From: Streptomyces sp. NBC_01267
GTDB lineage: Bacteria; Actinomycetota; Actinomycetes; Streptomycetales; Streptomycetaceae
Direction of reading: 5' to 3'
Assembly: GCF_036241575.1 (NCBI RefSeq)
Contig: NZ_CP108455.1
Span: 5,769,501-5,833,500 of the forward strand
Length of the DNA: 64,000 nt
Notes under the pieces: model-generated
What the model was told of the DNA's origin: nothing
What the model saw: only the letters and a program-made list of their open reading frames with translations
Databases searched by the model: none
Position numbers and translations under genes: made by a program
Part shown: positions 15,437-36,122 of the stretch, piece after piece
Position numbering within the stretch: position 1 is the first letter of the stretch
Layout: the number at the start of each line of letters is the position of its first letter

Positions 15437-15543
15437 GCGCAGTGGGCGGAACGGCACGGAGCCCGGCCCGCCGCCCCGCCCCCGCACCCCCCGTCCCCGC
15501 ACCCCGCGCCGGGAACCACCCGCTGTCACACCCATGGTGTGCA

Positions 15544-17739: not shown

Positions 17740-17797
17740 GAGACTGACGGGACAGGAGCCCGACCAGGACTGACTCCGCTCACCGAGAAGGACTGAG

Positions 17798-18382
17798 ATG
17801 ACCCGCGTGATCGCCGGTACGGCCGGCGGGCGCCGCCTCGCCGTTCCGCCGGGCAACGGCACCCGCCCCACATCCGACCGCGCGCGCGAAGGGCTCTTCT
17901 CGACCTGGGAAGCGCTCCTCGGCACCCTGGAGGGGACCCGGATCGCCGATCTGTACGCGGGATCCGGCGCCGTCGGTCTGGAGGCGCTCTCCCGCGGCGC
18001 GGTGCACGCCCTACTGGTCGAGGCCGACGTCCGGGCCGCGGCGACCGTCCGTGACAACGTACGCACCCTGGGTCTCCCCGGGGCGGAGGTACGGACGGGC
18101 AAAGCGGAGCAGATCGTGACGGGACCGGCGCCCGAAGCCCCGTACGACGTGATTTTCCTCGATCCCCCGTACGCCGTGACCGATGGCGATCTTCGCGAGA
18201 TCCTGCTCACACTCCGTGCCCAGGGGTGGCTCAGCGGCGATGCCCTCGTCACGGTGGAACGGAGCACACGAGGCGGAGAATTCAAGTGGCCCAAGGGTTT
18301 TGAGCCTTTGCGGGCCCGTCGCTACGGCGAGGGCACGCTTTGGTACGGTCGCGCCGCCTTTACGTGCGAAGACGCACGATGA
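17798..18382 (+). CDS. rsmD: 16S rRNA (guanine-966-N2)-methyltransferase
   Basis: SAM-dependent methyltransferase of 194 residues that modifies G966 of 16S rRNA. It starts [19 protein letters not shown], the usual RsmD opening, followed by [16 protein letters not shown], the SAM motif [18 protein letters not shown] near residue 50 and the catalytic DPPY (FLDPPYAV) near 123. It lies between recG and coaD, as in most actinobacteria. The stop region touches the coaD leader. Confidence 0.94.
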
Positions 18383-18408
18383 CCGGACCCGGGAACGAGG
18401 GACTTCAG

Positions 18409-18891
18409 TTGCGCCGCGCCGTCTGTCCGGGGTCGTTCGACCCCATCACCAATGGACACCTCGACATCATCGCCCGAGCGTCGAAGCTGTACGACGTCGT
18501 ACATGTGGCCGTGATGATCAACCAGTCGAAGCAGGGTCTGTTCTCCATCGACGAGCGGATCGAGCTGATCCGTGAGGTGACCGCCGATCTCGGGAACGTC
18601 GAGGTCGAGTCCTTCCACGGCTTGCTCGTCGACTTCTGCAAGCAGCGCGACATCCCGGCCATCGTGAAGGGGCTGCGTGCCGTCAGCGACTTCGACTACG
18701 AGCTTCAGATGGCCCAGATGAACAACGGGCTCTCCGGTGTCGAGACGCTGTTCGTCCCCACCAATCCCACCTACAGCTTCCTCTCGTCCAGTCTGGTCAA
18801 AGAGGTCGCGACCTGGGGCGGAGACGTCTCGCACCTGCTGCCGTCGCTCGTCCACGAGGCCCTGGTGCAGCGCCTCGGCGAGAAGCGATGA
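18409..18891 (+). CDS. coaD: phosphopantetheine adenylyltransferase
   Basis: Fourth step of coenzyme A synthesis: adenylates 4'-phosphopantetheine. 160 residues from the TTG at 18409, which gives the usual [19 protein letters not shown] start with the nucleotidyltransferase GxFDPxTxGH signature; GAGGGA lies 6 nt before it. An ATG at 18379 overlapping the rsmD stop would add ten residues and is the alternative. The C-terminal [13 protein letters not shown] corresponds to the second ATP-binding motif. Length matches the family. Confidence 0.94.
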
Positions 18892-18987
18892 ACTGACCAT
18901 GCGTCACCCGGTGTCGGGCGGGCGCCGACTGGCCGTACAGTCGTCCCCGTCCGTCTCCAGGCCGGAAGAACAGGTGGCGAGCACACG

Positions 18988-20103
18988 GTGGACGTGCAGA
19001 AGAAACTCGACGAGATCGTCGACACGGTCGGCAGCGCCAGGTCCATGCCCATGTCGGCCTCCTGCGTGGTCAACCGCGCCGAGTTGCTGGCGATGCTCGA
19101 AGAGATGCGCGAGGCCCTGCCGGGGTCCCTGGCGCAGGCACAGGAACTGATCGGCGGCCGCGAGCAGATGGTCGAGGAGGCCCGTATCGAGGCCGACCGG
19201 ATCATCGAGGCGGCCCATGCCCATCGCGGCTCCCTGATCTCCGACACGGAGGTCGCCCGGCAGTCCCAGGACGAGGCCGACCGCGTCCTCGCGGAGGCCC
19301 GCCGGGACGCCGAGGAGATCCGCGCCGAGGCCGACGACTACGTCGACTCCAAGCTGGCGAACTTCGAGGTCGTCCTCACCAAGACCATCGGCTCCGTCGA
19401 CCGCGGGCGCGAGAAGCTGCTCGGCCGCGGCCCGGGTCTGGACGAACAGGGGTACGAGGACCCGGAGGCCCCGGAGCGCAGTCACGACCCGGAGACGCTC
19501 AGGGAGCGGGCCGACGAGTACGTCGACACCAAGCTGGGCGCCTTCGAGGCCGTACTGGCCAAGACGCTCGAAGCGGTGGGGCGCGGCCGGCAGAAGCTGC
19601 ACGGCCGGGTCGCCTCCGACGAGCTCGGTGTGCACATGGCCGAGCAGGACGAGATGGGCCACCGGCACAGCAGCGACGCGGACTTCCTGTCGGACCTGGC
19701 CGAGCCGCAGCCGGCCGTTCCGGCTCAGCAGCCCGCGTCGATGCCCGCGCCGCTGGCGGCCCAGGCGCAGCCGGAGGCCCTTCCGCAGCGGCAGACCGAA
19801 GTCCCGGCCCAGCAGACGTACGACCCGTACGGCTATCAGCAGCCCCAGCAGCCCCAGCAGCCCCAGCAGCCCCAGCAGCAGGACCCCTACGCGTACCAGC
19901 AGCAGTACGGATACCAGCAGGACCCGTACGGCTATCAGCAGCCCCAGCAGCAGGACCCCTACGCGTACCAGCAGCCCGAGCAGATCCAGCCGCAGCAGCT
20001 CCCGCAGCAGGCCCCGCAGCAGAGCGCCCTCGACGAGACCAGCCTCTTCGACACGAGCATGATCAACCTCGATCAGCTCCGCGAGTACGAACAGGGACGC
20101 TAG
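18988..20103 (+). CDS. DivIVA-like coiled-coil protein with Gln/Pro/Tyr-rich tail
   Basis: Protein of 371 residues. Residues about 1-210 are helical and charged (VEEARIEADRIIEAAHAH, AEARRDAEEIRAEADDYVD), as in DivIVA/ATP synthase b-type coiled coils; the phrase EADxYVDxKLxxFExVLxKTxxxVxRGRxKL occurs twice, at about 112 and 172. The tail from about 240 is almost only Q, P, Y and D in repeats such as DPYGYQQPQQ, hence disordered. Homologues at this place are annotated as cell division initiation protein; the direct role is unknown. The GTG start at 18988 is probable. Confidence 0.8.
   Translation: MDVQKKLDEIVDTVGSARSMPMSASCVVNRAELLAMLEEMREALPGSLAQAQELIGGREQMVEEARIEADRIIEAAHAHRGSLISDTEVARQSQDEADRVLAEARRDAEEIRAEADDYVDSKLANFEVVLTKTIGSVDRGREKLLGRGPGLDEQGYEDPEAPERSHDPETLRERADEYVDTKLGAFEAVLAKTLEAVGRGRQKLHGRVASDELGVHMAEQDEMGHRHSSDADFLSDLAEPQPAVPAQQPASMPAPLAAQAQPEALPQRQTEVPAQQTYDPYGYQQPQQPQQPQQPQQQDPYAYQQQYGYQQDPYGYQQPQQQDPYAYQQPEQIQPQQLPQQAPQQSALDETSLFDTSMINLDQLREYEQGR
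19822..19992 (+). repeat. in-frame repeats coding the Q/P/Y tail
   Basis: Two long units beginning GACCCGTACGGCTATCAGCA (19822 and 19921), two copies of a unit with GACCCCTACGCGTACCAGCA, and runs of CCCCAGCAG. Slippage here can change tail length without breaking the frame. Confidence 0.8.
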
Positions 20104-20272
20104 GAGCTTTCCGGTCCCGAAGGGGCCGATTGGGTCTATGGCGGCCGGTCCAGTATCCTGGCTCTTCGGTCGCCCGTATCTCCGCGATCCGTGCTGCCCG
20201 TTCCGATGGTCTCCGGACGGTTTCCGACGTGGCGGCGCCCTATTCTTCAGCGATCCGAAAGCAGGAAGAGCC

Positions 20273-20917
20273 CTGAACGCCCGCCTCGACCACCGCAACC
20301 CCCTCGTGTTCGACACACACGAGCTGGGTCGGCGTCCCGGTGCGCTCCAGCGGCTCACCCGCTCGGTCGCAGCCCCCAAGGATTTCGGTATCGAAGGGGT
20401 CATCGGAGTGCCCGAGGGCGCTCCGGTCGAAATCCAGCTCCGCCTTGAGTCGGTCATGGACGGGGTGCTTGTCACAGGCACCGCCCGTTCATCCGCCAAG
20501 GGGGAGTGCGTAAGGTGTCTGGAGCCGCTGGAGCGAGAGCTCGAAGCGGATTTCCAGGAGATGTTCTCGTACCCCGAAGCCGACGACCGGGGCCGCAGCA
20601 AGAAGGCGGACCCGGCTGACAGTGCCGACGACGAGGACGAGGAAATCACCCCACTTGAGGACGGCTTGTTCGACCTCGAACCCGTGCTGCGTGATGCGGT
20701 GGTGCTCGCACTGCCGATGCAGCCGGTGTGCCGGGAGGATTGCGCCGGCCTGTGTTCCGAATGCGGAATCAGGCTGGACGACGAACCCGGTCACCACCAT
20801 GACGCCGTCGACGCACGTTGGGCGGCGCTGCAGGGACTCGTCGGGACCGGCCAGGTCGACGAGAAGGACAACGTTGACGGCGCCGAGCCTGGCGTCGACG
20901 AGAAGCAGGAGAAGTAG
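20273..20917 (+). CDS. YceD/DUF177 family protein
   Basis: Protein of about 214 residues. It contains the DUF177 core: [24 protein letters not shown] near residue 80, and [19 protein letters not shown] near 148, whose cysteines may bind metal. YceD homologues are co-transcribed with rpmF and are implicated in 23S rRNA or L32 maturation in plants and bacteria. No ATG, GTG or TTG lies between 20138 and the conserved [18 protein letters not shown], so the CTG at 20273, 5 nt after an AGGAAG box, is the likeliest start; the alternative is ATG at 20138, adding 45 residues of atypical codon use. rpmF follows after 2 nt. Confidence 0.82.
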
Positions 20918-20919
20918 CC

Positions 20920-21093
20920 GTGGCTGTTCCGAAGCGGAAGATGTCGCGCAGCAACACGCGCCACCGCCGGTCGCAGTGGAAGGCTGCGGTCCCCACCCTG
21001 GTTACGTGTGAGCGTTGCCAGGAGCCGAAGCTCCAGCACATCGCGTGCCCGAGCTGCGGCACCTACAACAAGCGCCAGGTCCTCGAGGTCTGA
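20920..21093 (+). CDS. rpmF: 50S ribosomal protein L32
   Basis: Ribosomal protein of 57 residues, starting [21 protein letters not shown], with zinc-type CERC and CPSC pairs. The GTG start is 2 nt after the DUF177 stop, with AGCAGGAGAAG as ribosome site inside that gene. The yceD-rpmF pair is widely conserved, here followed by rnc. Confidence 0.96.
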
Positions 21094-21112
21094 GCGGCTG
21101 GTGAGAGGCGCA

Positions 21113-21916
21113 ATGTCTGACGTCAACAAGACGGACAATGCCTCGTCCCACACGCTTCTGGAAGGGCGGCTCGGGTACACACTCGAGTCCGCCCTTCTGG
21201 TGCGTGCGCTGACCCACCGTTCGTACGCGTACGAGAACGGCGGTCTGCCCACCAACGAGCGACTGGAGTTCCTCGGGGACTCCGTGCTCGGCCTGGTGGT
21301 CACGGACACGCTCTATCGCACCCACCCCGATCTCCCGGAGGGCCAGCTGGCCAAACTCCGGGCCGCGGTGGTCAACTCGCGTGCGCTCGCAGGGGTCAGC
21401 CGTGGGCTCGAACTCGGTCTCTTCATCCGGCTCGGCCGCGGTGAAGAAGGCACGGGCGGGCGGGACAAGGCGTCCATTCTCGCCGACACCCTGGAAGCGG
21501 TGATCGGCGCCGTCTATCTCGATCAGGGCCTCGAAGCGGCATCGGAGCTGGTGCACCGGCTTTTCGACCCCCTCATCGAGTTGTCCTCCAACCTCGGCGC
21601 GGGCCTGGACTGGAAGACCAGTCTTCAGGAACTCACCGCAAGCGAAGGTCTCGGGGTTCCGGAGTACCTGGTCAGTGAGACCGGTCCGGACCACGAGAAG
21701 ACCTTCACCGCTGCTGCTCGCGTCGGTGGTGTCTCGTACGGCACCGGCACCGGCCGCAGCAAGAAGGAAGCGGAACAGCAGGCGGCGGAATCCGCGTGGC
21801 GTGAGATCAGCGCCGCGGCGGAAGAGCGTGCGGTGGCGGCCAGGACCGCTGCCGACGCCCCCGAAGAGGACGCCGACACCTCTTCGGCCCCTGCCGCCGG
21901 TACGGCTTCGGCCTGA
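21113..21916 (+). CDS. rnc: ribonuclease III
   Basis: Double-strand-specific endoribonuclease, 267 residues. The nuclease domain carries [15 protein letters not shown] near residue 45 (catalytic Glu and Asp) and [15 protein letters not shown] near 122. The C-terminal dsRNA-binding domain includes [18 protein letters not shown], and an acidic Ala-rich tail follows. In S. coelicolor the same gene is absB, needed for antibiotic production. The ATG at 21113 follows GAGAGG; an in-frame GTG four codons earlier is possible. Confidence 0.96.
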
Positions 21917-21930
21917 CGCCGGTTCTTTCC

Positions 21931-21958
21931 CCGCCCGTCCCCTCACGGGGGCGGGCGG
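21931..21958 (+). terminator. candidate terminator hairpin between rnc and mutM
   Basis: A 12-bp stem (CCGCCCGTCCCC with one G-U pair) and a TCAC loop, 14 nt after the rnc stop, followed by TT only. Confidence 0.5.
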
Positions 21959-22014
21959 TTCCGCATGCACCGGCCATCGTCGCGTTGACCGGCCAGACCT
22001 TCGGAGGATCAGTC

Positions 22015-22875
22015 GTGCCCGAGTTGCCCGAGGTGGAAGTCGTCCGGCGCGGGCTGGAGCGCTGGGTCACCGACCGTACCGTCGCCGAGGTGCAGGTGCT
22101 GCACCCTCGTGCCGTACGCCGTCACACCGCGGGCGGCGAGGACTTCGCGGCGGCGCTGCGGGGCCATCGGTTCGGGGTGGCGAGCCGACGGGGGAAGTAC
22201 CTCTGGCTGCCGCTGGCGGACACCGACTCCTCGGTCCTCGGCCATCTCGGGATGAGCGGACAGCTCCTCGTGCAGCCCGAGGACGCCACCGACGAGAAGC
22301 ATCTGCGGATCCGTATCCGGTTCGACGACACCCTGGGCACCGAGCTGCGCTTCGTCGACCAGCGCACGTTCGGCGGGCTCTCCCTGCACCCCAACACCGC
22401 GGACGGGCTGCCGGACGTCATCGCGCACATCGCCCGCGATCCGCTGGACGAGAAGTTCGACGACGCCGCGTTCCACACGGCGCTGCGCCTGCGCCGTACC
22501 ACCATCAAACGCGCTCTGCTCGACCAGTCGCTGATCAGCGGGGTGGGCAACATCTACGCGGACGAGGCGCTCTGGCGCTCGCGCCTGCACTACGAGCGCC
22601 CCACCGCCACCCTCACCCGCCCGCGCACCGCGGAACTCCTCGGTCACGTACGGGATGTGATGAACGAGGCGCTCGCTGTCGGCGGCACCAGCTTCGACAG
22701 CCTCTACGTCAACGTGAACGGTGAATCGGGCTACTTCGAACGGTCGCTGGACGCCTACGGGCGCGAGGACGAACCATGCCGCCGCTGTGGCACCGCCATG
22801 CGCCGCCGCCCCTGGATGAACCGGTCGAGCTACTTCTGCCCGCGCTGCCAGCGCCCACCGGCCGGCTCGCTCTAG
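22015..22875 (+). CDS. mutM: formamidopyrimidine-DNA glycosylase
   Basis: Base-excision repair enzyme that removes 8-oxoguanine and Fapy lesions. 286 residues. It starts [16 protein letters not shown], with the catalytic N-terminal Pro and Glu, which requires the GTG at 22015 (GGAGG 8 nt upstream). A conserved Lys is in [10 protein letters not shown] near residue 80, and the C-terminal zinc finger is CRRCGTAM with CPRCQ. Complete and of normal length. Confidence 0.96.
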
Positions 22876-22939
22876 AAGGCTCCGGCTAGAAGGCTCCGAC
22901 CTGCTGGAATCCAGTGAGTGAGCTTCGGGCCCCGGAACG

Positions 22940-23353
22940 CTACGCGCGCTCCTGCGGATCGCCGTGCGCCGAGTCGTACCGCCCGCGTGCTGTGAGTACT
23001 TCGTCCATCCGCCCCTCGACGAGCTCGATCAGCCCGAGCAGCCGCTCCGCGACATCGTGGCCCAGGGCCGTGAGTTCGTAGTCGACGCGGGGCGGATTGG
23101 TCGGCTGCGCCTCGCGGTGCACGAGGCCGTCACGTTCCAGCGCGTGCAGCGTCCGGGAGAGCATCTTCTCGCTGATGCCGTCGACGCGCCGGCGCAGCTC
23201 GTTGAAGCGCAAGGGGTGCTCGTGCAGGGCGCCGACCGTCAGGCTGCCCCAGCGGCCCGTGACGTTCTCCAGGGTGCCGCGCGAAGGGCACGCTCTGGCG
23301 AACACGTCGAACGGCAGGTCGGCGGCGCTGTCGTCGCGAACCGTGCTTTCCAT
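22940..23353 (-). CDS. HxlR-family transcriptional regulator
   Basis: Winged-helix regulator of 137 residues. It has the HxlR opening CPSRGTLENVTGRWGSLTVGAL near residue 22 and the recognition region RFNELRRRVDGISEKMLSRTLHALERDGLVHRE near 48-80. Such proteins often sense aldehydes, quinones or oxidants, sometimes through the N-terminal Cys seen here. It is convergent with mutM. Its upstream side is the left edge of the integrated element, 35 nt away, so any divergent target gene has been separated from it or never existed. Confidence 0.88.
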   Translation of the reverse strand: MESTVRDDSAADLPFDVFARACPSRGTLENVTGRWGSLTVGALHEHPLRFNELRRRVDGISEKMLSRTLHALERDGLVHREAQPTNPPRVDYELTALGHDVAERLLGLIELVEGRMDEVLTARGRYDSAHGDPQERA

Positions 23354-23387
23354 ACGGCCAGCCTACTGCGGTACCGCGCCGCGGTTC

Positions 23388-23398
23388 AGAAGCCGAAG
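23388..23398. repeat. left attachment-site core (attL), candidate
   Basis: AGAAGCCGAAG, identical to the site at 30044. Read on the minus strand with the preceding TCA it spells FGF-stop, as does the real end of the CAP-domain gene at the right edge. Fusion of the two flanks at this core would rebuild that gene with TGA instead of TAA as stop. Confidence 0.65.
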
Positions 23399-23536
23399 AA
23401 GTGACGGTGCGGGTTCGCAGCCTGCGGACTTCTTGACGATCAATGCTGTGACCTGCGGCTGGGGTGTCGATGGGTGTCAACGTTGGTCATCGCTGTGCGG
23501 CCGCGGACGGCCCACAGACGGCCCGCACCGTCATAC

Positions 23537-24208
23537 CTAGCTGGAAGACTTATCCTCCGAAGCCTTTGTGCGACGCTGCTGGAATTCGTCGTACTTGGCG
23601 GTGAAGACGTAGATGTAGTCAAGAAGCGCTTCGGCGAGTTCTAGAGCGTCCTGGGCGTCCTCCCGGCCCAATGCTTCCTTGCTGAAGTGGGCTCCTTGGT
23701 TGCCGAGCACGCGCAGTGCTTGCGCCCAGTCGAAGAGACGCCCCTCGATCTTTTTTGCGTCACGCAGCTCACCCAGCGCAGCAAAAAGCGCCTTCTTGCC
23801 TGTTCCCTGGTCGAAGCACATGCCCTCAAGAGTGCGTCGGACCATAACGGCAGTGGCGGTGTACAACTTGGCGCTGAAGCAGGCCCGAGCCTCGCGCATT
23901 TCGCGGGCTATCGGTAGGGGGATGCTCGGGCTCAGCGGTCCTGTAGCACTGCTAGGCCATTCCTGCGTCGGGCTTGTCCAGCCCCAGTGGCCACCAGCCA
24001 CCATCTCTGACATCTGCATGAGTAGCTGAGGGTTTCGGCACCCGTCGCACGACACAAGTGTGTAGAGCAGAGGCTCGAACCCCTCATCGCCCTCGGGCGC
24101 CAGCGTATAAGTTCCTCGCTGGGTGCTCAGTGTGTGCCCGTCGCAGCGAGGACACTCGATCAACATCGGTGGTAAGGGGGCGGCCCCCCACCCATTCGCG
24201 GTCGTCAT
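23537..24208 (-). CDS. DUF4145-domain protein with N-terminal zinc ribbon
   Basis: Protein of 223 residues. Two CxxC pairs, CPRC at 19-22 and CDGC at 54-57, suggest a small zinc ribbon. The rest (AREMREARACFSAKLYTATAVMVRRTLEGMC, then ALGELRDAKKIEGRLFDWAQALRVLGNQGAH) is the DUF4145 helical core, a family often found in mobile or defence-linked genes but without a settled function. The ATG at 24208 lacks a clear ribosome site; Met15 is the alternative. It is cargo at the left end of the element, separated from the other genes by the structured non-coding region. Confidence 0.75.
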   Translation of the reverse strand: MTTANGWGAAPLPPMLIECPRCDGHTLSTQRGTYTLAPEGDEGFEPLLYTLVSCDGCRNPQLLMQMSEMVAGGHWGWTSPTQEWPSSATGPLSPSIPLPIAREMREARACFSAKLYTATAVMVRRTLEGMCFDQGTGKKALFAALGELRDAKKIEGRLFDWAQALRVLGNQGAHFSKEALGREDAQDALELAEALLDYIYVFTAKYDEFQQRRTKASEDKSSS

Positions 24209-24760
24209 TCTTGGGAGACTAGCGGGGTGTCCAGTCGCTTGTGTCCTCAATGGCAGAGGTTGCCGGGTGCAGCGTCGACGGGGTCTCAGAGGCCGAGCCC
24301 AGCTCCGAAACCCACCACTCACCTCAGCTCCCATCCCGTCCGCCTTCGACCCACACACCGTGGAGCGGGCGTGGTTCAGGGCGTCAAGGTGGAGCGCGCC
24401 ACTGTACGAACGACCTTGACGCCCTGGGCCGCGACTGCTCGGCTCTGCCTGGGTCGAAGGCGGACGGGATGGGAGCCCCACAACGCTCACAACGCTCCGG
24501 CCGGCACCCGCGAACGGCGCCCCTCCCATCCCGGAGTCTGAGCGCCCCCGCCGGAGGCATGTCCTTGAGCCGCGGGCTTGGTTCTCGTCTCATGCCCTCC
24601 GGGCCTATCCACTGCGGGCGCGCGTCGGCGGCGGCAGCGACGAGCGGGCCGAAGGCAGGAGCGCGGGAGCGGCCAGAGCCGGGAAGCGCGCCCGGCGGAG
24701 CGGAGCGCAGCCGGGTGCCTTGATGAGGTAGAGAAACCTGTAACCCGGCCTGCGCGCTGG
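24209..24760. other. long non-coding stretch of the element
   Basis: A 552-bp gap without a credible gene: open frames on several strands overlap one another and are rich in Arg, Pro and Ser. It contains a 150-nt nested inverted repeat (listed separately) and a second shorter copy of CCCATCCCG near 24526. It is the best place in the element for a replication origin. Confidence 0.7.
24327..24476. repeat. 150-nt nested inverted repeat
   Basis: Outer arms of 27 bp are perfectly complementary (24327-24353 and 24450-24476), inner arms of 14 bp likewise (24377-24390 and 24413-24426). Both spacers are 23 nt long and also pair in part, with G-U pairs, and the top loop is 22 nt. The result is one long hairpin with a bulged middle. 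Candidates: single- or double-strand origin of the rolling-circle replicon, or a structured RNA. Confidence 0.85.
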
Positions 24761-25459
24761 CTAGGAGATCTGCTCGGCGGAGAGGGCGTCCGCGATGGCC
24801 TGCATCTCATGGGTGATGGCGTTGGCACCCAGAGAAGCGAACGTCTCGGCCTTGGTGGGCTTGTTGGCGTAGCCGATCACGCTGGCTCCAGCAGCTCGCG
24901 CAGCTTGGATGTCAGTCACTGAGTCACCGATCAGAGCGCATACAGAGACGTCTACGTGCATCAGTTCAGCGGCGTGTATCAGCGGATACGGGTTCGGCTT
25001 CATGAGATGCGGCTGCTCGGATGGGCGGCCCACGATCTCGGCGACGTATCCCCCCAACCCATGACGGTCCAAGAAGGCCTTTACACATTGGGCAGAGTTG
25101 TTGCTCACCACCGCAATCCCTCGGTTGGACTTCCTAGCTGCCAGCAGCGCAGCCACAGAACCCGGCGTCGGAGCTCCAGCAACCTCAACCGCCCGAACCT
25201 CTGCTGCCGTTAGGGCCTGCTCGATCCTCTGGCCCAAGGCTGCATCCGCCTCGTGGGCAATGCTGAGTACCTCGATGGGGTCGGTCGTTCCCATCGCCTT
25301 CGCCGCCGCAGCTCCATCTTCAGCCGAAAGCAGCCCCGCCAGCTCGCTGGCAACTTGCGGTGCCGGCAGTCCGGCGAACACGTCGCAGAGAGGCCCGTCG
25401 AAGTCGAACAACAGGACACGGGCTCCGATGAGCGCCTGGCTGAGAGGGTCAGTGGGCAT
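24761..25459 (-). CDS. HAD-superfamily phosphatase of the element
   Basis: Protein of 232 residues. LLFDFDGPLCD at 16-26 gives the Asp nucleophile and the second Asp; VVSNNSA near 124, KPNPYPLIHAAE near 163 and IGDSVTDIQAARAAG near 183 are motifs II, III and IV. It looks catalytically complete, a phosphoglycolate-phosphatase-like type; substrate unknown. The ATG at 25459 overlaps the end of the GntR gene by 11 nt and follows GGAAGGGA, so the pair is translationally coupled. A longer frame upstream would overlap GntR further and is not favoured. Confidence 0.85.
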   Translation of the reverse strand: MPTDPLSQALIGARVLLFDFDGPLCDVFAGLPAPQVASELAGLLSAEDGAAAAKAMGTTDPIEVLSIAHEADAALGQRIEQALTAAEVRAVEVAGAPTPGSVAALLAARKSNRGIAVVSNNSAQCVKAFLDRHGLGGYVAEIVGRPSEQPHLMKPNPYPLIHAAELMHVDVSVCALIGDSVTDIQAARAAGASVIGYANKPTKAETFASLGANAITHEMQAIADALSAEQIS

Positions 25460-26315
25460 CGAGATCGAAGTCCCTTCCGATGGTTCCCCACACGCTGTCG
25501 AACCACATGCCAGCCTGCTGCACCTGTTGGGCGCCGCTGGAGGATGCACCATCGTTGAGGGAGTGGTGGAACAGCACAGTGTCCTTGCCCACCAAGTCGT
25601 AGATCTCGATGGTTTCGCCTTGGGCGACGACCTTGTTGGGCCGGATCGGGTAGTACCCGAAGAAGGCGTCCTCGCCGTTGATGACGTACAGCTTGAAGAA
25701 GGGCGTCCCGCTGTGGACGCGCACCTGGATGCGGGTTTCTGAGACGAGGCCCAGGTGCTTCAGCTCAGCGACGGAGTCACGGATGCTGCGGGTGTAGCTG
25801 ATCATGATCTCCCGCATACGGTCGCGGAGACGCTGATCATCCTGGCCGTCCGTCATCCGGACCGGCGCGGCCTGGGGCACCGACATGTCCGGGACGAGTA
25901 TCCGCATGGTGATGCTCTGCGGCGTCAGCCTGCCTACTCGGATCTTGTCCAGTGGCTCTTGGAGTGCACCATGCAGGGTTTCGCTGGAGAACCCAGCGAA
26001 GTCGATGGTGACCTCATCCCGGCTGAACGCCTGCTCTACATACGGGCGAAGACCAGAGGGACGCTCGGTGCGGTTACGGACGTAGACCCCGCTGCCCTTT
26101 CGGGAGATGACAAGGCCCTCGTCCTCCAAGTCCCGCAAGGCCCGTTGGATCGTGGCCCGCGCGAAGCCGTACAGCTCGGTTAGCTCCTTGTGGGAGGGGA
26201 GCTTCTCTCCGGGGGCGATTCGACGGGTGCGGATGGCGGCGCTCAGGCTGCTTGCCACCTGCTCGTACGGCGGTCGGTCGTCGTCTGGATCCAACGGGTC
26301 GGGAACGTAGGTCAT
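25449..26315 (-). CDS. GntR-type regulator with unusual C-terminal domain
   Basis: Protein of 288 residues. The N-terminal GntR winged helix runs from PPYEQVASSLSAAIRTRRIAPGEKLPSHKELTELYGFARATIQRALRDLEDEGLV to about residue 75. The remaining 200 residues do not show UTRA or FCD features that I recognise; they end with RVHSGTPFFKLYVINGEDAFFGYYP and a tryptophan-containing segment. It stands divergent to the rep operon, the place of KorSA-type repressors in AICEs, and is coupled to the HAD gene. Likely role: repressor of the element's replication genes, responding to an unknown ligand. Confidence 0.82.
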   Translation of the reverse strand: MTYVPDPLDPDDDRPPYEQVASSLSAAIRTRRIAPGEKLPSHKELTELYGFARATIQRALRDLEDEGLVISRKGSGVYVRNRTERPSGLRPYVEQAFSRDEVTIDFAGFSSETLHGALQEPLDKIRVGRLTPQSITMRILVPDMSVPQAAPVRMTDGQDDQRLRDRMREIMISYTRSIRDSVAELKHLGLVSETRIQVRVHSGTPFFKLYVINGEDAFFGYYPIRPNKVVAQGETIEIYDLVGKDTVLFHHSLNDGASSSGAQQVQQAGMWFDSVWGTIGRDFDLDAH

Positions 26316-26353
26316 TTCTCGATGGTAGGTGACCGGAGGCGGACTAGGACAGT

Positions 26354-26429
26354 CATGTCAGCCAAGTTGTTGACATGGCTAGCCATGCTCTCTAACTTGG
26401 GACATGGCCAACCAAGCTAGTCAGGTTGG
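26354..26429 (+). promoter_or_regulatory. operator/promoter region of the rep operon
   Basis: TTGACA at 26370 and TAACTT at 26393 have a 17-nt spacer: a good promoter for the rightward genes. Three dyads overlap it: CATGTCA-n10-TGACATG (26354-26377), the perfect 14-bp palindrome CATGGCTAGCCATG (26374-26387), and CCAACC-n10-GGTTGG (26408-26429). A repressor bound here would block the promoter; the divergent GntR protein is the natural candidate. Confidence 0.7.
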
Positions 26430-26497
26430 TCACGTCGGGGCGGCACCCTACGGCCAAGCAGATGTGCCGCCCCTCGTCCCCTGAGGGAGCTTCCATC

Positions 26498-26953
26498 ATG
26501 CATGCAACACTCTTAGCTGCGCGTACCAGTCCGGACACCTCCGCTGAGCGTGACTTGCGCACAACCTTGCGGATGACGGGTGCTGAACGGACGGTCGCGC
26601 TGTACGCCTCGGACATGCCCACGGGCTTCTCCTGGTCGAGGGGCATCACACCGCAGGTGATCGCCTGGGTCATGCAGGGCGTTGACCGCCTCGGCTTCGA
26701 CGACGTGTACCGCTCCGGTGTGGAGGCGCAGCACTACAGGGTTCTGCGTCTGGCCGGTCAGGTCTCGGCAGCGGCGCGGCGCTGGTTTCGTGGTCGTTTC
26801 CCCGACCGTGCGCGGCTGGACTGTGTGGAGCAGGCCAACGCCATGCTGACCTTCCGCCTGGGCGACTACGAGCCGGTCTCCGGCTACGTCGGGGACGACA
26901 CTTTCCGGGTGTATCGCGCCTACGGCGATGACGTGGACGAGGTGGGCGTGTGA
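26498..26953 (+). CDS. hypothetical protein, first gene of the element's rep operon (contains TTA codon)
   Basis: Protein of 151 residues, not recognised. The middle (VIAWVMQGVDRLGFDDVYRSGVEAQHYRVLRLAGQVSAAARRWFRGRF) is helical and basic; the end is acidic. The ATG at 26498 follows GAGGGAG, a good ribosome site. Codon 6 is TTA (26513-26515), the leucine codon read only by the bldA tRNA in Streptomyces, so translation may be limited to differentiating cells. The stop overlaps the next start by 4 nt. Similar small genes often precede repSA in AICEs. Confidence 0.7.
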   Translation: MHATLLAARTSPDTSAERDLRTTLRMTGAERTVALYASDMPTGFSWSRGITPQVIAWVMQGVDRLGFDDVYRSGVEAQHYRVLRLAGQVSAAARRWFRGRFPDRARLDCVEQANAMLTFRLGDYEPVSGYVGDDTFRVYRAYGDDVDEVGV

Positions 26954-27162
26954 CCGCCTTCCCCGATGACGCCCTGCACGCGGCTGAGTGGGCGGACGAG
27001 AGGCGTACCGAGCAGATCGGCATGTACCTCGACGCTCATGACGTCCGCCCCTACACCCGGTTCTTCACCGTGATCGATGACGCCCACTACGCCGAGGAAG
27101 ACGCCAAGGTGCGCGGGCTCTACCCGCCGATCGGGCACGGCTACCCGAGGGAGGACCAGTGA
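26950..27162 (+). CDS. small hypothetical protein of the rep operon
   Basis: Protein of 70 residues, acidic, with HAAEWADERRTEQIGMYLDAHDVRPYTRFFTVIDDAHYAEEDAKV; no motif recognised. GTGA overlaps on both sides (with the gene before and with rep) make it a tightly coupled middle member of the operon. Could be an accessory of replication control; that is only inference from position. Confidence 0.65.
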   Translation: MTAFPDDALHAAEWADERRTEQIGMYLDAHDVRPYTRFFTVIDDAHYAEEDAKVRGLYPPIGHGYPREDQ

Positions 27163-28592
27163 CGGTCTTCCCCGTCGAGCCGTCGGCCGTGGCCGGTACT
27201 GCTGCGGTCGTGGGCACCGACCCCCTGACCCTGGCCGACCTCCTACGCGTCGCCAATGCCCCCGGCTTCGACCGGTGGCAGGAACAGGTTCGCCGTACCG
27301 GTGGCTGCTCGGACCCGATCCACCTGGAGGGCATGACCACGACCCGCGACGCGAAGTCGGGGCAGGTGCTCTACTCCTACAGCACCCAGGGCGAGCCCGG
27401 CGGACGGCTGCGGGTGGCCTGCGGCAACCGTCGCGCCTCCCGGTGCCCCTCCTGCGCCTGGACCTACGCCGGAGACACCTTCCACCTGATCCGCGCCGGA
27501 CTGACCGGCGACGTGAACAAGGGCACCCCGGTCACCGTGCGCACGCACCCCAAGGTCTTCGCGACCCTCACCGCCCCGTCGTTCGGCCCGGTCCACAACC
27601 GCCCCACCAAGGGCGCCTGCCGATGCGGCACCGACCACGCCGATGGCTCCCCGCTGCTGGGCTCGGCGCTGAACCCGGCCACGTACGACTACGCGGGTGC
27701 GGTGCTGTGGAACAACCACGCCGGAGACCTGTGGCGGCGCTTCACCATCTACCTCCGACGGGAGGTCGCCGCCCGCGCCGGCCTCTCCCAGAAAGCCTCG
27801 GCCAAGGAGTGCCGGATCTCCTTCGGGAAGGTCGCGGAGTTCCAGAAAAGGGGCGCGGTCCACTTCCACGCGATCGTCCGACTTGACGGACCCGACGGCC
27901 CCGACACGACCCCGCCGCCCTGGGCCAGCGTCGGCCTGCTGTCGGACGCGATCCAGGCGGCTGCTGCCCGCGTGAGCGTGCCCGTCCCACCTTCGGGCGA
28001 GCAACCGGCCCGGACCCTGCGGTGGGGTGCTCAGGTAGACGTACGGCCGATCGGCTCGGACAACGCGAACGACGACCTGACCGAACAGGCCGTGGCCGCG
28101 TACGTCGCGAAGTACGCCACCAAGGCAGCCGAGACGACCGGCACCGTGGACCGGCGCATCGGAGAGCTGGCCGAACTCGACAAGCTCACCGACCTCCCCG
28201 ACCACGCCCGGTGCCTGATCGAAGCGTGCTTCGACCTGGACGACGCCTACCCCGAACGCAAGCTCTGGCAGTGGGCCCACATGCTCGGCTTCCGCGGCCA
28301 CTTCTCCACCAAGTCCCGCCGCTACTCGACCACCCTCGGCGCCCTGCGCCAGGTCCGGGCCGACTTCCGCGCCCGCCAGGAACGCCGCGAACGGGGCCTG
28401 CCCGACTCGGACGACTCCCCGGAGGGCTCCACACTCACCCTCGCCCACTGGACCTACGCCGGACACGGCCACACCCCCGGCGAATCCTGGCTCGCCGCCA
28501 CCATCCACCGCGACATCCACACCAACCGCGAGACCGCCCGCGAAGCACGCGCCGAACTCGAAGACGTCGACGGACCGGAGGTGTGGGCATGA
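27159..28592 (+). CDS. RepSA-type rolling-circle replication initiator
   Basis: Protein of 477 residues. It has the HUH motif in KRGAVHFHAIVRLDG near residue 232 (two His around a hydrophobic residue bind the metal) and a catalytic-tyrosine candidate in AAYVAKYATKAAE near 313, followed by a C-terminal part with RGHFSTKSRRYSTTL. The N-terminal CxxC-type segments (ASRCPSCAWTYAGD, GACRCG) resemble the zinc-like part of Streptomyces plasmid Rep proteins. Such proteins nick the origin and start rolling-circle replication of the excised circle. GGGAGG precedes the GTG start; xis overlaps the stop. Confidence 0.9.
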   Translation: MTVFPVEPSAVAGTAAVVGTDPLTLADLLRVANAPGFDRWQEQVRRTGGCSDPIHLEGMTTTRDAKSGQVLYSYSTQGEPGGRLRVACGNRRASRCPSCAWTYAGDTFHLIRAGLTGDVNKGTPVTVRTHPKVFATLTAPSFGPVHNRPTKGACRCGTDHADGSPLLGSALNPATYDYAGAVLWNNHAGDLWRRFTIYLRREVAARAGLSQKASAKECRISFGKVAEFQKRGAVHFHAIVRLDGPDGPDTTPPPWASVGLLSDAIQAAAARVSVPVPPSGEQPARTLRWGAQVDVRPIGSDNANDDLTEQAVAAYVAKYATKAAETTGTVDRRIGELAELDKLTDLPDHARCLIEACFDLDDAYPERKLWQWAHMLGFRGHFSTKSRRYSTTLGALRQVRADFRARQERRERGLPDSDDSPEGSTLTLAHWTYAGHGHTPGESWLAATIHRDIHTNRETAREARAELEDVDGPEVWA

Positions 28593-28786
28593 GGCGGCCG
28601 CTCCCCGATCGCTACCTGACACCGCTCGATCTGGCTGACCTCCTCGGCGTTCCGGTCGAGACGGTCTATCAGTGGCGGCGCAAGGACACCGGGCCCCGTG
28701 GCTTCCGCGTCGGCCGGCACCTCCGCTACGACCCCGAAGACGTCCGCGTGTGGGTCGCCGCACTGATGGACAAGGAGGCTGTCTGA
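28589..28786 (+). CDS. xis: excisionase (MerR/AlpA-type helix-turn-helix)
   Basis: Protein of 65 residues: YLTPLDLADLLGVPVETVYQWRRKDTGPRGFRVGRHLRYDPEDVRVWV. This is the short winged-helix DNA-binding fold of recombination directionality factors, with the ETVYQWR recognition helix. The ATG overlaps the rep stop by 4 nt, and its own stop overlaps the int start. It would bend DNA at the attachment site and push the integrase towards excision. Confidence 0.9.
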   Translation: MRRPLPDRYLTPLDLADLLGVPVETVYQWRRKDTGPRGFRVGRHLRYDPEDVRVWVAALMDKEAV

Positions 28787-30021
28787 TGGCCGGACACATC
28801 CAAGACCGCTGGTATAAGACCGAGCCGGGGCCGAAAGGCAAGACGGTCAAGGTTGCGACCGAACGACATGGAGTCGGTCTGCGTTACCGCGCCCGCTACG
28901 TCGGTCCCGATGGCAGCGAGAAGTCCAAGAGCTTCCCGGACAAGCAGAAGCGCAAGGCTGAGACCTGGTTGGCGAACATCGAGGCCGACATGTCCCGTGG
29001 CGACTACATCGCTCCTGAGGCTGGTAAGGCCACTTTCGAGCAGTACGCCACGAAGTGGATGAAGACGCAGATGACCGACCCCTCCACTCGGGAGTCTGTC
29101 GAGATGCGGTTGCGTCTTCACGCGCTCCCGCACATCGGCAAGCGCCCCATCGGTTCGTTCAACCCGACACACATTCGACTGTGGATGCGGATCCTTGAGG
29201 ACGCGGGGCTCTCGCCTGCGTATCGGCGCGGCATCTTCGCTCACGTCTCGACCGTCTTCACGGCCGCTGTCGAAGACCGGGTGATCCGGGCCAATCCATG
29301 CAGCGCAAGGTCTGTGAAGGCTCCCCGCCTCGACCCGCGCAAGGTCAAGCCTTGGTCTGGTGATCAGGTCAAGGCTGTGCGGGCTGTCCTGCCTGAGCGG
29401 TATCGGGCGCTTGTCGACCCCGCCGCCGGGTGCGGTCTTCGACAGGGGGAGGTGTTCGGCCTGGCTGTCGAGGATGTCGACTTCCTCGGCGGTGTCGTGC
29501 ATGTGGTCCGACAGGTGAAGCTTCTGCGCAACCGGCCCGTGTTCGCACCGCCCAAGGGTGGCAAGGAGCGGGAGGTTCCCCTGCCGGAGTCCATCGCCTT
29601 CGCGTTGGCCGGCCACCTCACGCAGTACCCGGCGGCGGAGGTCACCTTGCCCTGGAAGTCTTTGGACGGCCCGCCGGTTACCGCTTCTCTGATCTTCCGG
29701 AGCCCTGAGGGCTTTTCCCTGAACCGGAATCGCTTCAACGACCGGCAGTGGCGCCCTGGTCTCCGTGCTGCCGGTATCGCCAACGGGAGGGATAACGGGA
29801 TGCACGCGCTACGGCACTTCTATGCATCCGTGCTGTTGGACGCCGGGGAAAGCATCAAGGCCCTGAGCGAGTACCTCGGCCATCACGATCCGGGCTTCAC
29901 GCTGCGGACCTACACGCACCTCATGCCGGCCAGTCAGACGCGTACGCGAGCAGCCGTGGACGCAGTGTGGGCCGCCCCGGTCGCCAATGACGGCCCCGAG
30001 ACGGCCCACGAGAGTTCATAG
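28786..30021 (+). CDS. int: tyrosine site-specific integrase
   Basis: Protein of 411 residues. The catalytic set is visible: Arg219 in GLRQGEVFGL, His340 and Arg343 in HALRHF, His366 in LGHHD and Tyr376 in RTYTHLM. The N terminus (SKSFPDKQKRKAETWLANIEADMSRGDYI) is the arm-binding region, followed by a core-binding helical domain. AAGGAGG lies 9 nt before the ATG. The gene ends 22 nt before the candidate right attachment core, the standard place for an integrase gene. It looks intact. Confidence 0.95.
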   Translation: MAGHIQDRWYKTEPGPKGKTVKVATERHGVGLRYRARYVGPDGSEKSKSFPDKQKRKAETWLANIEADMSRGDYIAPEAGKATFEQYATKWMKTQMTDPSTRESVEMRLRLHALPHIGKRPIGSFNPTHIRLWMRILEDAGLSPAYRRGIFAHVSTVFTAAVEDRVIRANPCSARSVKAPRLDPRKVKPWSGDQVKAVRAVLPERYRALVDPAAGCGLRQGEVFGLAVEDVDFLGGVVHVVRQVKLLRNRPVFAPPKGGKEREVPLPESIAFALAGHLTQYPAAEVTLPWKSLDGPPVTASLIFRSPEGFSLNRNRFNDRQWRPGLRAAGIANGRDNGMHALRHFYASVLLDAGESIKALSEYLGHHDPGFTLRTYTHLMPASQTRTRAAVDAVWAAPVANDGPETAHESS

Positions 30022-30041
30022 GTCGCTGACCTGCGGAATTC

Positions 30042-30947
30042 TTAGAAGCCGAAGTCCTGGGTCCACCAGGGACCGCCGGACCCGAAGTGCACGCCGACGC
30101 CCAGCGTCTTGAAGTCGCAGTTGAGAATGTTCGCGCGGTGGCCCGGACTGTTCATCCACGCGTTCATCACCGCGGTGGCGTCGCTCTGCCCCTTCGCTAT
30201 GTTCTCGCCGCCCAGACCCGTGACCCCGGCCTTGTCGGCCCGGTCCCAGGGGGTGGCGCCGTCGGGGTCGGTGTGGTCGAAGAAGCCGCGCGCCGCCATG
30301 TCGTCGCTGAAGGCCCCGGCCAGCGCGGCGAGGTCGCCGTCGGCCTGTACGGGCCGGCAACCGGCCTGCGCCCGCTGCTGGTTGACCAGGCTCAGCACCG
30401 CTGCCGCCGCAGCGCTCTCGGAGCTGGTCGCTGCCCGGGGCCGCGCGGACTCCGTACGCTCGGGCGTCGCAGTGGTGGTACGGGTCGGGGCGGCGCTGTG
30501 CGCCGCGGCCCCGCTGCTCTGCTTCGCCTTCGGGCCGGTCCGCTCCGAGGGGGAATCCGAGGGCGAACCGGAGGCCTTCTCCTTACGTGGCGACGGAGCG
30601 GCCGACGGCGCGTGGGCGGAGGCCGAGCCGGTCGGGGCGGAGGGGGTGCCCGATGTAGGTGTGGCGGACGATCCGCCCTGCGTCTGGAGGTCCGGCACCC
30701 CGTCGGCGCGCACCTGGTCACTGCCGCCGGAACCGCCCACCGTGTAGGTGTCCCCGCCGGGCAGCAGCCCTGATGCCATGGCCACGGCGCCGACCGCGAC
30801 GGCGGCCGACACCCCCAGCAGCCCGGCGCGTACGGGCGTGGCCTTCCGCTCCTTGCGGCGCGCGCGGCCGTGGTGCGAGCTGTCCGGGGCCGCCGGGTGG
30901 TCAGGGGCGGGCGCCGGTACGGCGGCAGAGCGACGATGGCGTCCCAC
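30042..30947 (-). CDS. membrane-anchored CAP/SCP-domain protein
   Basis: Protein of 301 residues. A short basic N terminus is followed by one membrane segment (VRAGLLGVSAAVAVGAVAMASGLL, about 37-60), then a long Ser/Pro/Ala/Thr-rich linker, then a C-terminal CAP domain (about 180-301) with VNQQRAQAGC, HTDPDG, GENIAKG, WMNSPGHRANIL and a WTQDFGF end. CAP-domain proteins are extracellular; function in Streptomyces is unknown. The GTG at 30947 was chosen since GAGGAAGG lies 8 nt before it; the only earlier starts are TTG or ATT without a ribosome site. The stop overlaps the right end of the integrated element. Confidence 0.85.
   Translation of the reverse strand: MGRHRRSAAVPAPAPDHPAAPDSSHHGRARRKERKATPVRAGLLGVSAAVAVGAVAMASGLLPGGDTYTVGGSGGSDQVRADGVPDLQTQGGSSATPTSGTPSAPTGSASAHAPSAAPSPRKEKASGSPSDSPSERTGPKAKQSSGAAAHSAAPTRTTTATPERTESARPRAATSSESAAAAAVLSLVNQQRAQAGCRPVQADGDLAALAGAFSDDMAARGFFDHTDPDGATPWDRADKAGVTGLGGENIAKGQSDATAVMNAWMNSPGHRANILNCDFKTLGVGVHFGSGGPWWTQDFGF
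30044..30054. repeat. right attachment-site core (attR), candidate
   Basis: AGAAGCCGAAG, the same 11 bases as at 23388, coding the last residues and part of the stop of the CAP-domain gene on the minus strand. It lies 22 nt after the int stop. Confidence 0.65.
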
Positions 30948-31080
30948 AGGCGGTGCCTTCCTCAAGCTCGACGTCAACGAAATTCACCCGTACGGGTGAG
31001 GCGCATTGGGTCGGGACTGTAGTCCATGAGGCGTGGGGGCGAGGTGCGGGTGAGCCGATTGGCCGGTTAGCGTTTCGGCT

Positions 31081-31362
31081 ATGAACGAAGATGCACGGCT
31101 TACCGCCTGGGTGCGCGGCAAGGTCCAGGGAGTGGGGTTCCGCTGGTTCACCAGGGCCAATGCGCTGGAGATCGGTGGCCTCACCGGATTCGCCCTCAAT
31201 CTGGAGGACGGCAGAGTGCAGATCGTGGCCGAGGGCCCGCGCGAGAAGTGTCACCTTCTGCTGGAGTGGCTGAGGTCGTCCGACACACCCGGCAGAGTCG
31301 ACGGTGTCACTGAGATCTGGGACACTCCGCGCGGTGGGTACGCGACCTTCGCGATCCGCTGA
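31081..31362 (+). CDS. acyP: acylphosphatase
   Basis: Small enzyme of 93 residues that hydrolyses acyl phosphates. [47 protein letters not shown] carries the phosphate loop (GKVQGVGFR, with the catalytic Arg) and the conserved GxxxNLxDGxV with the catalytic Asn. Divergent from the CAP gene across 133 bp. Complete and of standard length. Confidence 0.95.
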
Positions 31363-31734
31363 CCCGGCCGGGGCGCGCCGGACGGACCATCTGCCCCTGG
31401 CATATACGTAAGGCAGAAAATGCCTGGTGGTTGCCAAGAAGCGCACTCCGTGCCAGGCTGCGGCGGTAGCGATGATCTCCACGCCCTCAGGGCCCCGCAG
31501 GAGAGCCGCACCGCAGGTCGCCCTGCCGTGCGCCCCCGGGTCTGCCCTTCGATACGGGCTGTGATCGTGTTGACCGTCAAACTTTTTGGTGAGACCCTGG
31601 AAGCCCCGCGCACCTCAGCTGCTTGGCAGTAGGAAAACGCAGAGACTCTAGAGGCTGCCGAGTACCGCGGGTGCGATTCCCCCTATGACCCGCCACTTCT
31701 CCGGTCGGTCACTCAGTGTGGAGGACCATCCATC
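31363..31734. other. intergenic region between acyP and a small coiled-coil gene
   Basis: A 372-bp gap. Nothing in it reads as a convincing gene: a frame of about 70 codons ending near 31632 lacks a ribosome site and family character. It is AT-richer around 31570-31590 (TTGACC followed by AAACTTTTT), where a promoter could lie. GGAGG at 31721 is the ribosome site of the next gene. Confidence 0.5.
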
Positions 31735-31950
31735 ATGGCAAAGGCGCTTCTCGGTTACGTCGGCGGTTCCGACCCGCGACTTCTCTCCGAGATGCGACGG
31801 CTTCAGCAGCGCGTCCAGGACCTCGAATCCGAGCTCGTACGGATTCAGTCCGAGAACGACGCGCTGGCCGCCGCTGTTCAGCACCACGGAGACTCGTTGC
31901 TCGACGGTATCGACATCGACGTACCCCACGCGGAGCCTGCGCTCACCTGA
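31735..31950 (+). CDS. small conserved coiled-coil protein of unknown function
   Basis: Protein of 71 residues: MAKALLGYVGGSDPRLLSEM, then a heptad-rich helix (RRLQQRVQDLESELVRIQSENDALAAAV) and an acidic end. The Leu/Val/Ile spacing predicts a short coiled coil. The ATG follows GTGGAGG by 10 nt. It lies between acyP and smc and ends before a terminator, so it is its own transcription unit. I recall a protein like this next to smc in other streptomycetes, without a known role. Confidence 0.78.
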   Translation: MAKALLGYVGGSDPRLLSEMRRLQQRVQDLESELVRIQSENDALAAAVQHHGDSLLDGIDIDVPHAEPALT

Positions 31951-32032
31951 CCGAAGCCTCACAAAGGAAGCCCCACAAGGGACGGTCGGGCTGATCCGTC
32001 AGCCGCTTGAGATCCAATGCGCAAGGATATGC

Positions 32033-32058
32033 AAGGGACGCTTCGGCGTCCCTTCTTT
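32033..32058 (+). terminator. Rho-independent terminator before smc
   Basis: Stem AAGGGACGC with its complement (9 bp), TTCG loop, then TTCTTT. Ends the small coiled-coil gene. Confidence 0.8.
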
Positions 32059-32210
32059 CTGCTCACTCTCCCCCGCTTGCCGATGGCCGCATCACGCAGA
32101 CGCGGACTTCCCCCGCTGTACATCGCTTCGTCGCGCGTACGTCCTTTACCGTCTGATGTGCCCTGCACCTTCGTGGGTGAAACCGACAGCGAAAGGTAGA
32201 GTCCGGCGGC

Positions 32211-36122
<3,912 letters not shown>

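Follow-up and report, generated by a model that had tools for sequence, protein, structure and literature searches.

Does a small integrative element that has kept its replication and recombination genes, and in which no transfer gene is recognised, represent a remnant on its way out or a satellite that other elements move? The question arises at a locus in a Streptomyces chromosome, which we analysed within a stretch of 64,000 nucleotides (the window). A sequence-only reading of the same DNA had described an AICE-like element here and had left both answers standing.

Borders and genes of the element

The element spans 23388-30054 (6.7 kb) and is bounded by 11-bp att repeats, with the core AGAAGCCGAAG present at 23388 (attL, 23388-23398) and again at 30044 (attR, 30044-30054); neither core is assigned a strand. 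In a genome of the same species (G358), the flanks are joined across one AGAAGCCGAAG copy, and the DNA is 99% identical on both sides. Because this exact empty site occurs within the species, the boundaries are beyond chance. They are those given by the sequence-only reading, which had also proposed looking for an empty version of the locus. The attachment site is the 3' end of a host CAP/YkwD gene (30042-30977, minus strand). At attR the element provides the stop codon of this gene, replacing TGA with TAA. Four CAP-site relatives (L050, L183, L185 and L188) conserve 72-80% of the bases that follow attL up to 23525, and this stretch perhaps holds Int arm sites.

Profile searches recognise three consecutive plus-strand genes in the AICE order proposed earlier, and all three reading frames are open: the rolling-circle initiator RepSA (27159-28592), the excisionase-type HTH protein Xis (28589-28786) and the tyrosine integrase Int (28786-30021). 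RepSA scores 501 bits in Pfam and 831 bits in NCBIfam, and its translation contains the HFH motif and the YVAKY tyrosines. Xis also scores 38 bits against mad1 in PADLOC, a likeness of the HTH, and the NCBIfam model for mad1 stays below its cut-off. The rep operon begins with a variable gene for a 151-aa protein (26498-26953, plus strand), followed by a 70-aa ORF (26950-27162, plus strand) that overlaps each neighbour by 4 bases. The 151-aa protein has no known domain in a Pfam search, and we set aside its predicted fold (mean pLDDT 46). These two ORFs had been overlooked, as had the two structured noncoding stretches discussed below (24309-24744 and 26429-26506).

The minus strand carries the three genes that had been listed as cargo. 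All are present. The HAD-family gene (24761-25459, start picked by eye), which overlaps the end of the GntR gene, has an open frame that is 96% identical in the nearest relative, G052. The DUF4145 gene, the cargo of the left end (23537-24208, start picked by eye), has no alignable counterpart in G052; its protein scores 17 bits against PD-T7-4 in PADLOC. The GntR protein (25449-26315) is, judged by position and similarity, probably a KorSA-like regulator and not cargo; it is 44% identical to the GntR of a tra-positive AICE in the same genome. That resident AICE carries tra, RepSA and Int.

The reported lack of an FtsK-like TraB and of a Nudix gene holds: all 10 FtsK_SpoIIIE matches of Pfam in the genome lie outside the element, two home-made Tra HMMs find nothing in it, and a Pfam search of its proteins matches no Nudix domain. 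Spd proteins also appear to be absent, since every sizeable ORF is otherwise assigned or is without a Pfam match. A clt-like transfer site had been suggested as well, and we looked for it as clusters of short repeats. The noncoding DNA of the element contains no exact 8-mer repeat cluster. With exact matches counted on one strand, a single 8-mer recurs three times inside a 160-base span of the element, and it falls in coding DNA; this approach to clt was dropped.

Two structured noncoding modules

A 436-bp module on the plus strand (24309-24744) is common to the window element and the tra-positive AICE in the same genome, at 96% identity. It contains an inverted repeat of 64 nt (24327-24390/24413-24476). 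Its structure is beyond chance, because 18 pairs in its hairpins are changed on both sides and none of 500 shuffles scored as high. The 3' third resembles pIJ101 7385-7269 (69% over 128 bp, with 0 of 1000 shuffles as good). This part of the plasmid, some 1.2 kb downstream from rep, is the one to which the single-strand origin sti is assigned. Like the sti/sso of pIJ101, the module, a putative counterpart, follows rep on the circle, in the same strand, and has strong secondary structure; it differs in an additional large 5' hairpin. Its orientation to rep is fixed and independent of Rep type, in fetched stretches (6 kb upstream, 14 kb downstream) that favour finding a downstream rep. Eight of the 40 module loci have neither rep nor tra and are taken as remnants. 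Rfam returned three matches up to an E of 1, all far below the gathering score; the best, mir-4776 on a module hairpin, reached 33.7 of 97 bits and was rejected. For AICEs, the shared module offers a concrete candidate for the single-strand origin.

Could it be the transfer site instead? The gene beside the module-like match in pIJ101 is presumably korB, which would favour a clt, but we take the pIJ101 clt to lie at the opposite (3') end of that gene, which counts against it. The identity of the module does not follow Rep (rho 0.12, p 0.50, n = 32) and does not clearly follow Tra (rho 0.35, p 0.06, n = 29), which is what recognition by a host factor would predict. Together with the placement of the pIJ101 match where sti lies and the want of clustered short direct repeats in the noncoding DNA of the window element, this makes a clt an improbable reading of the module. 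It draws what support it has from the 96% identity shared with the resident tra-positive AICE, from a description of the pIJ101 clt as close to korB in an excerpt of PMC3583192, and from the excerpted text of PMC9513070, in which no clt is described for pSAM2.

The second module is a structured leader of the rep operon (26429-26506, plus strand), which may act as the double-strand origin or as a regulatory RNA. It has a covarying 9-bp stem (26437-26445/26465-26473) with the loop CCTACGGCCAAGCAGAT, and a second, weakly supported hairpin spans the Shine-Dalgarno sequence. By BLAST, the leader occurs in 25 of 30 tra-less elements versus 0 of 44 tra-positive ones. A covariance model finds a longer, weaker version in many tra-positive AICEs, which rules out a tra-less-specific leader. 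Four strong matches (57-67 bits) lie just upstream of FtsK matches, two in G218 and one each in G197 and G009. The leader therefore belongs to AICEs at large, and a compact variant of it is common among tra-less elements. Matches to the model occur in 99 of 392 sampled genomes of the genus, and the weaker matches, along with a small number of strong ones, come from tra-positive elements. Eleven of 20 strong-leader loci are without a full RepSA and hence stand outside the Rep tree.

A tra-less RepSA clade that crosses species

Among 27 decidable elements at the CAP site, 24 are without tra and three (L052, L196 and L198) carry it. According to the sequence-only reading, sister strains whose element at this locus carries a complete tra gene would point to simple deletion. 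Such elements do exist, but their Reps fall in a different, tra-positive clade, and for this reason they look like composites and not like the undeleted parent of the tra-less element.

We built a RepSA tree of 105 rows (58 tra-positive, 39 tra-less and 8 undecided) from every fetched RepSA match below 1e-120 with at least 300 aa. One short row and 5 identical sequences were dropped, and L048 and L180, which repeats L133, had been set aside before that. A row counted as tra-less when the Tra HMMs matched nothing upstream, provided that 7 kb or more of upstream sequence was available or that an opposed GntR lay no further than 2.5 kb away. One clade of 36 rows (support 100/99) contains 35 tra-less rows, one undecided row and no tra-positive row. 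It takes 35 of the 39 tra-less rows, 19 at the CAP site and 16 at other att sites. Nine of its tra-less rows came to light solely by way of the leader model, and their check followed later; none of these loci has a Pfam FtsK match within 10 kb of the leader. The tra-less state is thus old and common to a RepSA clade. The tree also requires at least five changes of tra state, and four tra-less Reps (L049, L145, L171 and L174) stand outside the clade, so tra has been lost or gained more than once among RepSA elements.

Earlier Rep trees, limited to E below 1e-200 and to 10 of 19 named tra-positive loci with RepSA, led to the same conclusion. A Fisher test of 8/1 versus 6/40 gave p 2e-5, on counts compiled by hand in which tra-positive means an FtsK/Tra match a few kb from RepSA on the same strand and elements cut by contig ends are dropped. 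The 24/3 count includes elements without intact RepSA and is unsuitable for this comparison. Decay is also happening, since seven of the 24 tra-less CAP-site elements fail the 1e-200 RepSA filter, with a broken or missing Rep.

The closest copy, that of G052, lies in another species and is 95.5% identical to the window element; Rep, Int and GntR align over their full length. Fourfold sites in the element differ by 17.2% in Rep, 8.1% in Int, 3.4% in GntR and 1.9% in the small ORF, versus 48.7% in MutM, 48.3% in HxlR, 58.8% in CAP and 46.7% in AcyP in the flanks. This contrast (2-17% versus 47-59%) indicates that the tra-less form itself has moved between species. A second pair, L054/L190, behaves similarly (Int 11% and Rep 16% versus CAP 39%), and a third, L054/L193, shows the contrast for Int only (13%), its Rep (32%) being close to MutM (29%). 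Between the copy in the window and L183, Int retains 89% amino-acid identity even though the two differ at 53% of fourfold sites, and both Int and Rep appear to be under constraint.

Remnant, passenger or satellite

The tra-less clade, the apparent constraint on Int and Rep and the species crossing together favour a mobilisable satellite over a decayed remnant, the two options that the sequence-only reading had left side by side; mobilisation by a helper is what we infer. We think it likely that this is an integrative mobilisable element derived from an AICE, with TraB supplied by other elements, on whose transfer machinery it probably rides. Lifting of GntR repression would let Xis and Int excise the element, and RepSA would replicate it as a rolling-circle plasmid, with priming of the displaced strand at the sti-like module. 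An AICE or conjugative plasmid in the same cell could then provide the TraB that carries the double-stranded circle, or alternatively a chromosome segment bearing the element, into a neighbour, where Int would insert it at attB. Against this reading, the search for repeat clusters in noncoding DNA yielded no clt-like site, and a helper is not always resident, because the draft assembly of G113, which hosts a tra-less element, shows no AICE-type tra among its 12 FtsK matches.

A complete AICE that recently lost tra here and is on its way out would account for the tra-positive elements at the same site and for the copies that fail the RepSA filter. It cannot easily accommodate an entirely tra-less RepSA clade, the foreign Reps of the tra-positive CAP-site elements, or replication and recombination genes that are open and look constrained where a decayed remnant should have broken ones; for this copy, the species crossing and the Rep clades largely refute it, and we regard it as improbable. 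A passive rider, integrated by its own Int after the TraB of other plasmids or AICEs has moved chromosome segments, needs no dedicated mobilisation site. Chromosome mobilisation by TraB via clt-like sites is described in excerpts of PMC3218068 and PMC4170104, and the repeat-cluster search found no clt in the element. That a deep clade has kept both RepSA and the sti-like module nevertheless suggests that the replicating circle matters for spread or maintenance, which leaves the passive rider unlikely, if still to be reckoned with. Spread by phage, through transduction or as a phage satellite, would suit the small size, the integrase and the site-specific insertion. However, no capsid or packaging domain occurs among the element proteins, viral contigs hold five Int relatives of which the best is 46% identical, and all 1485 Int matches in phage records are below 60%; we consider it very improbable.

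The mobilisable element that we prefer resembles pSAM2-type AICEs of the RepSA group in its RepSA-Xis-Int order, GntR, sti-like module, rep-operon leader and site-specific insertion. By canonical AICE criteria, it has the initiator (RepSA), integrase, excisionase and att repeats but not the FtsK/SpoIIIE-type Tra, and its RepSA belongs to a separate clade. It also differs in attaching within a protein gene, which is not unique, because AICEs with pSLS-type integrases likewise avoid tRNA genes, according to an excerpt of PMC3218068. A DAICE, as defined in part of PMC9513070, is also an AICE-related element missing a functional block, but it keeps traB and has lost other functions; the window element is the reverse and does not qualify. 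With IMEs it shares, judged by sequence, its own integration and excision and the lack of its own transfer channel. The IMEs described in the excerpted text of PMC5704250 hijack T4SS-type single-strand transfer, and that text does not mention a TraB double-strand version.

Tra-less AICE relatives are already known, but a coherent lineage is not described in the literature searched. Fean1457, Fcci0407, Fcci1144 and Feul5809 of Frankia are isolated cases, for which the excerpt of PMC3218068 reports no lineage, species crossing or shared cis modules. We tentatively propose, with slightly more doubt than conviction, that Streptomyces has an old lineage of satellites that depend on TraB. Its members would be RepSA elements whose transfer was lost early and whose Rep differs from those of their helpers; they would use many att sites and different integrases, and travel in trans via the TraB of resident AICEs. 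If so, the distinct Rep type would let satellites coexist with a tra-positive AICE, and among elements that travel as double-stranded DNA they would be the equivalent of IMEs. Surveys that rely on traB as a signature would overlook elements of this kind. An excerpt of PMC9513070 asks whether every AICE depends on its own TraB or can hijack that of another. The question becomes directly testable here: the element is small, intact and tra-less, its attB is known, a sister strain has the empty site, and a tra-positive AICE shares the cell.

Boundaries and gene content of the element

The attachment (att) core, AGAAGCCGAAG, lies at window positions 23388 and 30044 and corresponds to the 3' end of the host CAP/YkwD gene (30042-30977, minus strand). 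A blastn comparison with the conspecific genome G358 places window segments 15001-23398 and 30044-36000 next to each other at 99% identity, with a single core copy between them. This is an exact empty site, and the insertion is polymorphic within the species. Together with the core at both ends, the unoccupied locus bears out the bounds 23388-30054 drawn in the sequence-only reading and supplies the empty version sought in relatives. The element keeps the CAP reading frame, altering the stop codon alone, as read from the blastn alignment. Elsewhere in the window, five tRNA genes (Gln, Glu, Glu, Gln, Glu) cluster at 1592-2083.

From left to right, the element carries a DUF4145 protein gene (minus strand), a 436-bp noncoding module (24309-24744), HAD and GntR genes (both minus strand), a leader (26429-26506), ORFs of 151 and 70 aa, and RepSA, Xis and Int, which are consecutive and in the AICE order recognized earlier. 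The GntR-HAD pair and DUF4145 gene, initially taken as cargo, are present, but we read GntR as regulation rather than cargo because, according to excerpts of PMC3218068, pSAM2 represses pra through KorSA, a member of the GntR family. The element's GntR is 44% identical to that of a resident AICE in the same genome (L045; G000:C1, about 2146820-2156530) that has tra, RepSA and Int. The GntR-adjacent gene is variable, encoding HAD in this element, a GNAT acetyltransferase in L045 and, in locus L054, an AAA_33 kinase-like protein for which BLAST finds relatives in L053, L055 and L056.

Distribution and phylogeny of tra-less elements

Matches to Int at E 1e-60 occur in 230 of 392 genus genomes. 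The CAP gene is the location of 13 among the 19 best-scoring other fetched Int-match places plus G172, and of 20 among the best 80 of 315 loci in genome_contigs; four loci, on contigs judged the same by their equal lengths, are common to both sets. With L182, L184 and L197 cut by contig ends, the decidable set is 27 elements, window included; for the left-cut L047, L190 and L195, tra state was judged from the intact interval ahead of rep. An FtsK/TraB-type transfer gene is absent from 24 of the 27, and RepSA passes E 1e-200 in 17 of these 24 and fails in 7. Where both att sites were found, tra-less elements span 4.5-9.5 kb (most 5-7.6 kb); L186, measured from an inner att copy, spans 2.7 kb. 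The remaining three elements (L052, L196 and L198) have tra; sizes measured in the same way for elements with tra are 9.1-12.3 kb. Tra at the same site in relatives had been proposed to indicate simple deletion; it does occur in these three, yet their Reps fall outside the tra-less clade, nested among tra+ AICEs. Their pairing of a CAP-type integrase with a RepSA of a tra+ clade points to module exchange between lineages.

An Int tree with five outgroup rows unites the CAP-site elements in one clade (100/100). The window belongs to a 13-member group (97/78) in which 11 are tra-less, 2 are unknown and none is known to be tra+. The RepSA tree is clearer on the tra-less lineage. Its fuller version has 105 rows (58 tra+, 39 tra-less, 8 undecided), including a 36-row clade (100/99) with 35 tra-less members, one undecided and none tra+. 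The CAP site accounts for 19 of the 35 and other locations for 16. Outside the clade lie four tra-less rows (L049, L145, L171 and L174), and the tree requires at least five changes of tra state.

We also examined 20 new loci picked by a strong score with a leader model built from tra-less elements. None of the 20 has a Tra HMM match, and all nine with full RepSA fall in the tra-less clade; given the origin of the model, this membership is partly expected, though no such expectation applies to their lack of tra. When the nine hosts were searched with Pfam FtsK, no match lay within 10 kb of the leader; G346 has a single 31-bit match 10.5 kb away on the opposite strand. Nine loci (L269, L271-L274, L276, L278, L281 and L286) have GntR, an integrase and a strong leader but lack RepSA; they may use another replication protein.

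AICE relatives without tra were noted earlier in Frankia (excerpts of PMC3218068), whereas DAICEs are described as retaining traB (excerpts of PMC9513070). Excerpts of an IME review (PMC5704250) cover TraB transfer and mention no TraB-dependent IME, and none of the papers listed by our literature searches is about a tra-less RepSA lineage or this attachment site.

Movement between species and possible helpers

The window element and its counterpart in genome G052 are 95.5% identical over 24311-30405 (the final 350 bases being CAP gene), compared with 80% in the upstream flank. Fourfold sites differ by 1.9-17.2% in four element genes versus 46.7-58.8% in four flanking genes. HAD is open in both, and the difference between the two elements is confined to the left end. 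Since neither copy has tra and their gene order is the same, the sequence comparison indicates that the tra-less form itself moved. L054 and L190 show the same element-host contrast relative to CAP (57 sites), and L054 and L193 show it for Int only. The opposite pattern in L192 and L194, where Int differs by 23% versus 7% for MutM and host flanks are nearly identical, points to element replacement (turnover) at one site in near-identical hosts. Among the other CAP-site pairs, compared where Int identity was at least 85%, element and host differ to a similar extent in most cases.

The resident AICE contains the module, GNAT, GntR, Tra, a small ORF with CxxC-type motifs behind the leader, a C5 cytosine methylase, RepSA and Int. 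Tra-less CAP-site elements have 12 further hosts among the genus genomes sampled; in 11 of these an AICE-type tra+ element also resides elsewhere in the genome, and in the twelfth, G113, none was found. Such co-residents are compatible with a helper role, a permissive observation only because AICEs are common.

Noncoding module and rep-operon leader

The 436-bp module is a candidate sti-like single-strand origin. Across 24 aligned copies (mean column identity 87%), its predicted structure pairs 98.8% of cells, with 18 pairs changed on both sides; neither value was reached in 500 shuffles, although scoring the structure on the alignment from which it was derived favors it. Shifting partners by 1-3 columns leaves under 40% of cells paired. 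Folding as single-stranded DNA gives z -6.9 for the rep-side strand and -3.4 for the other. In all 32 loci with rep, the module precedes that gene on the same strand (the fetched sequence extended 6 kb upstream and 14 kb downstream); in the circular form this position falls downstream of rep-xis-int. The final third of the module is similar to pIJ101 7385-7269 (46.4 bits versus a best of 39.2 in 1000 dinucleotide shuffles). This pIJ101 stretch is on the rep strand, about 1.2-1.3 kb downstream of that gene, in the region to which excerpts of PMC9761944 and PMC11985553 assign sti, where the second strand is synthesized. Module identity does not track Rep identity and tracks Tra identity weakly. 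Copies occur in at least 253 of 392 genus genomes, with few candidates scored per genome, and partly in Micromonospora pMR2. Eight copies (L136, L141, L143, L146, L150, L153, L156 and L164) have no RepSA or Tra within the fetched 20 kb and are probably remnants.

The leader's 9-bp stem, with two-sided changes in 6 of 9 pairs, and a conserved loop precede the highly variable first gene of the rep operon. A second hairpin is paired in just 78% of cells. Jointly, the two hairpins exceed all 500 shuffles in four of five measures, but not in number of pair types (254 of 500). The leader may be a double-strand origin or an RNA regulator. The window has the compact form; a longer version (11180-11279 in L045) is found in tra+ AICEs. 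In some tra+ AICEs (genomes G218, G197 and G009), a strong leader copy instead stands ahead of tra.
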